Source of the DNA: Lentibacter sp. XHP0401
Lineage (GTDB): Bacteria; Pseudomonadota; Alphaproteobacteria; Rhodobacterales; Rhodobacteraceae
DNA length: 64,000 nucleotides
Assembly: GCF_025751535.1 (NCBI RefSeq)
Contig: NZ_JAOWLC010000004.1
Span: 186,001 to 250,000 of the forward strand
Direction: 5' to 3'
Made by a program: the position numbers and the translations under genes. Positions 17,656 through 63,094 of this stretch are shown here, in pieces. Under the pieces are notes generated by a model. That model worked only from the letters and a program-made list of their open reading frames with translations, did not search any database and was not told the origin of the DNA. Each line of letters starts with the position of its first letter. Position 1 is the stretch's first letter.

Positions 17656-17762
17656 GGTTAACACGCTTGAAAACCACCGATTCCGGGGGGGGTGAAATAC
17701 GTGCACCACGCGTGCACGAAGCGTGCACCGGTTGAATCGCGTTGTTGTTAAGGGAAAATTAG
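17656..17762. other. GTGCAC triple-box element, copy 1
   Basis: Non-coding element between the convergent gshA and small membrane protein genes. In order: GGTTAAC (17656-17662), a G run followed by GTGAAA (to 17697), then GTGCAC at 17701, 17712 and 17723 (exactly 11 bp apart, each palindromic), then TTAAGGGAAAATTAG at 17748-17762. A second copy with the same order and nearly identical spacings lies at 62962-63066. It may be a protein-binding array, a small-RNA gene or a chromosome-organising site; nothing in the window decides between these. Confidence 0.6.
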
Positions 17763-17804
17763 GTAACGCACCGTACGGTATTCCGCACGGTGCGTTACAT
17801 TTTT
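17763..17804. terminator. bidirectional intrinsic terminator after gshA
   Basis: A 36-base palindrome: GTAACGCACCGT at 17763-17774 pairs perfectly with ACGGTGCGTTAC at 17787-17798, with an inner CGG/CCG pairing. On the plus strand it is followed by ATTTTTC, and on the minus strand by TAATTTTCCC, so it can stop transcription of gshA and of the convergent membrane-protein genes. Confidence 0.8.
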
Positions 17805-62961: not shown

Positions 62962-63066
62962 GGTTAACGACGGTTTTGCTTCTTAAAACAGGGGGGTGAA
63001 ACCCGTGCACAAAGCGTGCACCCTGCGTGCACCGTCTGATAGGGGATGTGTTAACGGGAATTAAGT
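62962..63066. other. GTGCAC triple-box element, copy 2
   Basis: Between the convergent MttB-like and universal-stress-protein genes. Order: GGTTAAC (62962-62968), AAAACAGGGGGGTGAAACC, then GTGCAC at 63005, 63016 and 63027 (11 bp apart), then TTAACGGGAATTAA starting at 63051. Distances 43, 11, 11 and 24 nearly equal those of copy 1 (45, 11, 11, 25). The remainder of the 345-base spacer holds a terminator on the left and a 13-bp perfect hairpin on the right. Confidence 0.6.
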
Positions 63067-63094
63067 TAATACGGCGTTCGGGGGATCGGCCCGG

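Follow-up and report, generated by a model that had tools for sequence, protein, structure and literature searches.

An oriented, spaced three-box GTGCAC element, putatively protein-binding, recurs along the chromosomes of Lentibacter and related bacteria

The stretch of DNA analysed here, which we call the window, is a 64-kb part of contig C23 in the genome assembly of Lentibacter sp. XHP0401 (G000; 3.71 Mb in 28 contigs). It contains two copies of an element built around three GTGCAC boxes, each in a gap where two genes face one another. One copy lies between a gene for a GCS2-family ligase and a facing open reading frame without a Pfam match, the other between an MTTB gene and a facing Usp gene. 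These genes were predicted with our own gene finder, trained on 118 long open reading frames, and they confirm the convergent placement that the first-pass annotation had given to both copies. Compared by the GCS2 gene, which encodes a glutamate-cysteine ligase, the closest named records belong to Lentibacter (family Rhodobacteraceae), with identities of 89, 90 and 95%; two further records, which share one identical contig and carry the labels Roseobacter sp. AQU-03 and Flavobacteriia bin, reach 94%. The parts of the two elements are listed below, where R1 denotes a model built from sequence alone.

17656..17767, + strand: element 1, whole (three-box pattern and R1 model match, G000:C23:203655-203777)
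17656..17662, + strand: element 1, upstream arm GGTTAAC (TTAA is kept here in an alignment of 50 copies)
17685..17700, + strand: element 1, core half, G-run plus GTGAAATAC (G-run and GTGA nearly invariant across the 50 copies)
17701..17706, + strand: element 1, box 1, GTGCAC (pattern scan)
17712..17717, + strand: element 1, box 2, GTGCAC (pattern scan)
17723..17728, + strand: element 1, box 3, GTGCAC (pattern scan; the next base, C, is invariant in the 50 copies)
17748..17767, + strand: element 1, downstream AT-rich arm TTAAGGGAAAATTAGGTAAC (sequence and 50-copy alignment)
62962..63069, + strand: element 2, whole (three-box pattern and R1 model match, G000:C23:248961-249080)
62962..62968, + strand: element 2, upstream arm GGTTAAC (sequence)
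62991..63004, + strand: element 2, core half, G-run plus GTGAAACCC (sequence)
63005..63010, + strand: element 2, box 1, GTGCAC (pattern scan)
63016..63021, + strand: element 2, box 2, GTGCAC (pattern scan)
63027..63032, + strand: element 2, box 3, GTGCAC (pattern scan)
63051..63069, + strand: element 2, downstream AT-rich arm TTAACGGGAATTAAGTTAA (sequence and 50-copy alignment)

Measured from start to start, GGTTAAC, the three boxes and the downstream TTAA follow one another at 45/11/11/25 bp at the first locus (GGTTAAC at 17656-17662, boxes at 17701, 17712 and 17723, TTAA at 17748) and at 43/11/11/24 bp at the second (62962-62968; 63005, 63016 and 63027; 63051), which reproduces base for base the layout and intervals first noted for the two loci. 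A scan of the window for GTGCAC-N5-GTGCAC-N5-GTGCAC, tolerating up to three mismatches, returned two matches, each with no mismatch, where 100 shuffles predict 0.02. The GTGCAC box by itself is frequent, with 11 more in the window outside the elements. Replication polarity, spacing, conserved positions and lineage consensus cannot be seen in the window because they require the whole genome.

We next turn to the genome and its relatives, in which the first-pass annotation had proposed a pattern search. The whole G000 genome has 57 three-box places at two or fewer mismatches, 53 of them exact, and a reversed control pattern has none, so that a chance occurrence at the two window loci alone, which the annotation had held open, does not describe the data. 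R1 matched 58 places in G000, most of them exact three-box copies, with few decayed copies, and it matched 52 in G001, 56 in G002, 49 in G004, 19 in G006 and one each in G003 and G005; three relatives thus carry 49–56 matches, and four of the seven genomes of the Lentibacter group carry 49–58. The exact pattern was present in five of 40 genomes (G000, G001, G002, G004 and G006), all from one genus group, with only three copies in G006.

Farther afield the distribution is patchy. Over 149 genomes of the family, 14 including G000 matched R1 (E 1e-4 or better, strict filters), several of them weakly; L253, one of the matching loci, had no box array on reading. R2, a second model that describes the core across several genera, found 94 copies in G092, a member of another genus, and 11 in G095. 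In G005 it matched 25 places at E 0.01, many of them close to that cut-off, and in G003 one. Over 289 genomes of the class, R2 matched G000 only at E 1e-5 with strict filters. At E 0.01 it found nothing in the genomes of Ruegeria pomeroyi, Thalassovita mediterranea, Phaeobacter italicus and Roseobacter MED193, and Sulfitobacter undariae had eight weak matches. Because of this patchiness, the element cannot serve a universal need.

Copies in G000 share a common architecture. In the core, GGGGGTGAWANGC precedes three GTGCAC boxes set at 11-bp intervals, and TTAA arms enclose it; across 50 ungapped copies the core consensus is GGGGGTGA-W-A-N-G-C, then two units of GTGCAC-nnn-S-C, then GTGCAC-CG. 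These 50, drawn from the 53 exact copies and used in G000 for the alignment and for the analyses of gene context, flanks and orthology, were picked by their 18 exact box bases, so the invariance of the boxes holds by construction, and the G-run, the GTGA and the C before each box are conserved although they lie outside the selection criterion. GGTTAAC stands some 42–45 bases ahead of box 1, a T-rich stretch follows the boxes in the alignment, and many copies have an AT-rich arm of the type TGTTAACGnAAATTAAnTTAA about 20 bases past box 3. The site is thus more than 40 bp long in its core, compound and asymmetric, with the G-run and GTGA first and the phased boxes after. The first-pass annotation had described a repeated, phased element resembling a protein site and no ordinary promoter, and the conservation of bases at fixed phase upholds that description.

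Two simpler readings of this anatomy were dropped: an NtrC-like site (TGCAC-N5-GTGCA), on account of a spacing unlike that of the NtrC site, and a mini-ORF with a Shine-Dalgarno sequence and ATG, whose start and stop vary among the copies by eye. Outside the three-box copies, the two-box pattern GTGCAC-N5-GTGCAC, which is blind to any pair carrying C or G at a certain outer position and so gives a partial view of all pairs, occurs once in G000, once in G001 and not in G002 or G004. The two sites, at L285:1494-1535 and near L284:1501-1530, are the element in altered form: the step is 10 bp or a box is lacking, which shows that neither the step nor the number of boxes is fixed. The pattern had been meant to find the promoter site of a self-regulated reader gene, and as both sites are element variants it yielded no candidate gene.

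None of the 50 copies in G000 and none of the 42 in G001 that were examined lies inside a predicted gene, though a few touch a gene end. For 37 of the G000 copies both neighbours lay within 300 bp (13 of 50 were dropped, 8 as too far and 5 as having no neighbour), and the flanking genes were convergent at 15, tandem at 19 and divergent at 3; for 33 in G001 (9 of 42 dropped) the counts were 13, 18 and 2. Gaps of 100–600 bp without the element gave 9, 38 and 17 (n=64). Convergent placement is thus enriched (p 0.004 in G000, 0.009 in G001) and divergent placement depleted (p 0.04 and 0.02). The idea that the element belongs between convergent genes is accordingly reduced to a tendency, 15 of 37 against 9 of 64 other gaps. 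Intergenic position, convergent enrichment and the T-rich stretch past the boxes are what one would expect of a cis-regulatory or transcription-termination site for the adjoining genes, but the element seldom lies between divergent genes (3 of 37 copies, against 17 of 64 other gaps), and tandem genes in G000 run along with it in 10 cases and opposite in 9, so that gene direction does not set its orientation.

What orientation does follow is replication. G001 is a single 3.28-Mb contig with parS sites at 3.035 and 3.037 Mb, and its elements flip between 2.94 and 3.02 Mb, near parS, and again between 1.39 and 1.53 Mb. With the origin set at 2.98 Mb and the terminus at its antipode, 44 of the 52 copies point from origin to terminus (p 4e-7); one of the eight that run against arm polarity lies near the assumed terminus. 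Neighbouring copies rarely switch orientation: there were 7 switches in G000 against 20.8 expected (56 of 58 copies), 14 against 25.7 in G001 and 28 against 44.3 among the 94 copies of G092. The GC skew of the flanks, with the element itself excluded, was positive on the element strand for 49 of 50 copies in G000 and 41 of 42 in G001; in G092, where 20 copies were chosen, 15 of them as running against their contig, 19 agreed, several being barely positive. In G001, 47 of 60 evenly placed 2.7-kb segments agreed in skew with their arm. Given this local agreement, orientation tracks the local leading-strand signature more than the present arm. Four of five G001 exceptions that we checked had local skew on the element's side, the one at 1.66 Mb being without it, which suggests that the exceptions sit in segments that were probably inverted or relocated.

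The first-pass annotation had allowed that variants might lie randomly with respect to gene orientation. Orientation is indeed non-random, and the account needs correcting in that replication, not the genes, sets it. The element tracks replication and not transcription, and we regard the cis-regulatory or termination reading as highly improbable. As a separate observation in G001, elements against arm polarity at about 1.66, 2.15 and 2.37 Mb lie near samples with weak or reversed GC skew.

Copies also keep their distance from one another. Gaps shorter than 8 kb numbered 0 in G000 against 6.2 expected, 1 in G001 against 6.1 and 1 in G092 against 16.2, and the gaps in G001 have a coefficient of variation of 0.67 (p 0.001 against random placement) and a minimum of 7,994 bp (p 0.001). 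Copies thus avoid one another below about 8 kb, and their spacing ranges from kilobases to tens of kilobases. Density from origin to terminus is flat, at 15, 11, 12 and 11 per successive bin for 49 copies, with no rise toward the terminus.

Many of these places are old. For 38 of the 50 G000 copies, the adjoining DNA on one or both sides matched that of an element in G001, from which 46 of 52 loci entered the comparison. This goes against the possibility, raised at the outset, that the copies carry no conservation in relatives. Orientation was the same in all 34 pairs in which both copies could be oriented; four G001 copies without three exact boxes were left unoriented. In those 34 orthologous pairs, whose loci were chosen by exact boxes, identity was 99.0% at conserved positions and 49.5% at variable positions, which is not the course of neutral decay after insertion. 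Non-orthologous pairs gave about the same values, 98.8% and 47.7%, and because orthologous copies are thus about as alike at variable positions as non-orthologous ones, the core has been held while the spacer turned over fully. We take a held core with a randomised spacer to be the strongest sign of what is probably selection on each copy, with the choice of loci by exact boxes inflating the conserved figure.

The consensus itself differs between lineages. In Lentibacter algarum B3M08 and isolate 3-229, the form found at the ligase gene keeps its arms, and its boxes read GTGCAT or GTGCAG by eye; over 79 ligase loci, R2 matched three at E 1 or better, two Lentibacter records and Roseobacter sp. 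AQU-03. Of five copies read in G006, four combine GTGACATCC with boxes of the forms GTACAC and GTGCAC; G003 and G005, each read at a single copy, show GTGCAT. In G092 the units are GTGCAC and GGCTGACATCC at 11-bp steps between similar arms, and G060, G095 and G040 have other versions, in part without the G-run or arms. Such lineage-wide change suggests that the consensus may have coevolved with a reader protein.

These drifted forms also bear on whether the copies are related small-RNA genes whose transcription runs the same way as replication, an option that the first-pass annotation had left standing. Leading-strand orientation would suit such genes, the G-run with GTGA looks by eye like a ribosome-binding sequence, and the boxes pair with one another in predicted folds. 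However, none of the 10 pairs in the consensus fold shows a compensatory change, and the GTGCAT, GTACAC and GGCTGAC forms of other lineages weaken or break the pairing between boxes. Single folds gave z-scores of -1.4, -1.9, -1.6 and -0.5 (two loci, both strands). Rfam, run over the window at gathering thresholds, found a tRNA-His only, and a more permissive scan of the surroundings of element 1 turned up a single sub-threshold match that lies outside the element, leaving the elements without an Rfam match. Some 50 loci with a minimum spacing would also be odd for an RNA gene. This option is not borne out, and we consider it quite improbable.

The main rival to a protein-binding landmark is a non-autonomous mobile repeat of MITE or REP type, which a transposase acting in trans would have inserted with a replication-strand bias and under target immunity, and which would by now be old or domesticated. 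Strand bias is known for IS200/IS605 and for Tn7 with TnsE, and target immunity for Tn7 and Mu; the strand bias, the repulsion between copies and the patchy occurrence among genera all fit such behaviour, and the arms are roughly inverted (TTAA with GCGnnCGG). Sites differ in presence among relatives. At L029 the element occurs in G000, G001, G002 and G004, a two-box form occurs in G006, and none was seen in G003 or G005; at L013 there is a 14-bp gap in G005, a different 1-kb stretch in G001 and a GTGCAT form in G003. Over long times, then, elements are both gained and lost. The element-free sites in G005 and G003 would fit mobility, though the intergenic DNA in which a target duplication would show does not align. 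At 884-942 of L029 stands another repeat, which is short, G+C-rich and terminated by GGGATATTTGAGGCAAGAAAAAAG, with many matches in the relatives searched; it resembles repeats at gene ends and seems to have no connection with the element.

Plasmids offer a further point for mobility, with one or two copies on those of Sulfitobacter and Leisingera. The G000 version matched four Sulfitobacter and two Leisingera plasmids, and the G060 version had matches on 12 plasmids from Leisingera and on one from Sulfitobacter; two plasmid searches with the versions of other genera found no match. Among three plasmids searched whole, two had one copy and a Leisingera plasmid had two. On three Sulfitobacter plasmids (L276:6001-6102, L277:5001-5102 and L279:4001-4102) a Lentibacter-like copy adjoins the same RidA/aspartate aminotransferase block. 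These three copies suggest passive transfer with that block.

Against a mobile repeat stand the core kept at 99% in orthologous places while variable bases were randomised, the similar copy number (49–58) in four species, the few decayed copies (53 exact of 58 model matches in G000) and the absence of any match among the phage records searched. We judge this explanation rather unlikely. Viral contigs gave two exact matches to an oriented 23-base pattern, on L161 and L162, both without the G-run/GTGA part. On L162 the match falls within G+C-rich sequence of low complexity, and we attribute it to chance. The 4.4-kb contig L161 has a capsid gene and also a primase/helicase-type gene (AAA_25; PHROG DNA primase/polymerase families), and downstream of the latter seven GTGCAC fall within 130 bp (1180-1307), four of them spaced by 12, 11 and 11 bp. 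This cluster could be the origin array of a phage or a remote relative of the element.

Several known systems resemble the element in part. The Ter sites of the Tus and RTP fork traps are polar protein-binding sites oriented relative to the origin, with about 10 copies around the terminus; the element shares their relation to the origin, but its roughly 50 copies are spread chromosome-wide. REP/BIME and MITE repeats are interspersed, intergenic, lineage-specific and present in many copies, whereas the element has no covarying hairpin, has old orthologous copies with a held core, and shows strong polarity and spacing. Iteron arrays of plasmid and phage origins, and MraZ boxes, are direct repeats near one helical turn apart, and the boxes of the element are similarly phased beside an AT-rich stretch; unlike iterons, the element has about 50 chromosomal copies, and neither window copy adjoins a replication gene among its four flanking genes.

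Polarity also links the element to AIMS, KOPS and SRS. AIMS, according to PMC5993296, are polar 8-bp sequences oriented along the leading strand, alike within clades and rising toward the terminus, with 27 AIMS amounting to 7119 copies in E. coli; KOPS and SRS, the guides of FtsK and SpoIIIE, are polar leading-strand motifs too, KOPS being 8 bp long. Set beside these, the element has the same leading-strand bias (44 of 52 copies in G001; skew at 49 of 50 and 41 of 42) but differs from the high-copy octamers in its core of more than 40 bp and its roughly 50 copies (57 in G000), and from AIMS also in lacking a terminus gradient and keeping a minimum spacing. Passages of PMC7901474 mention KOPS-directed FtsK movement for Dinoroseobacter and contain no such element. 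Queries for GTGCAC with Rhodobacteraceae and for six core strings found nothing in the open-licence PMC literature, and the titles and abstract openings among the papers listed likewise yielded no description of the element. We conclude that the element family is real and that, within the reach of these searches, it is undescribed.

We favour the reading that the element is an oriented, spaced, putative protein-binding landmark for chromosome maintenance, interspersed and replication-oriented, and on sequence comparison we give it roughly even chances. A dedicated DNA-binding protein, either an oligomer or a multi-module protein with one module per 11-bp helical turn, would occupy the core on double-stranded DNA, and the bound complex would serve as a polar landmark to machinery that moves along the chromosome or depends on its direction, for which the replication fork, an SMC complex and a segregation translocase are candidates. 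The consensus would then differ by lineage as it coevolves with its reader. Several points count against the landmark: the patchy distribution, the tolerated copies against arm polarity, the flat density toward the terminus and the absence of the element at some loci in other members of the group. The boxes beside the primase/helicase-type gene on L161 would fit a replication-origin array as well, and GTGCAC is self-complementary, which makes single-strand effects formally possible. A more specific proposal, which we offer tentatively as a possibility, is a polar chromosome-domain element, that is, a helix-phased modular site about every 60 kb, bound by a lineage-specific multi-module reader, that might act as a one-way barrier or pass for the fork or for a loop-extruding SMC complex, loosely as CTCF does for cohesin, its code drifting lineage-wide as the protein evolves.

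To our knowledge, the polar chromosome motifs of bacteria have so far been short words or a few terminator sites. A long, asymmetric and spaced element, held at dozens of orthologous places and with a consensus proper to each lineage, points to a DNA-binding protein that may have a genome-wide structural or replication role. More than 50 coordinates form a ready, testable set, and other genera provide naturally occurring variants in the specificity of a system that appears to be the same.
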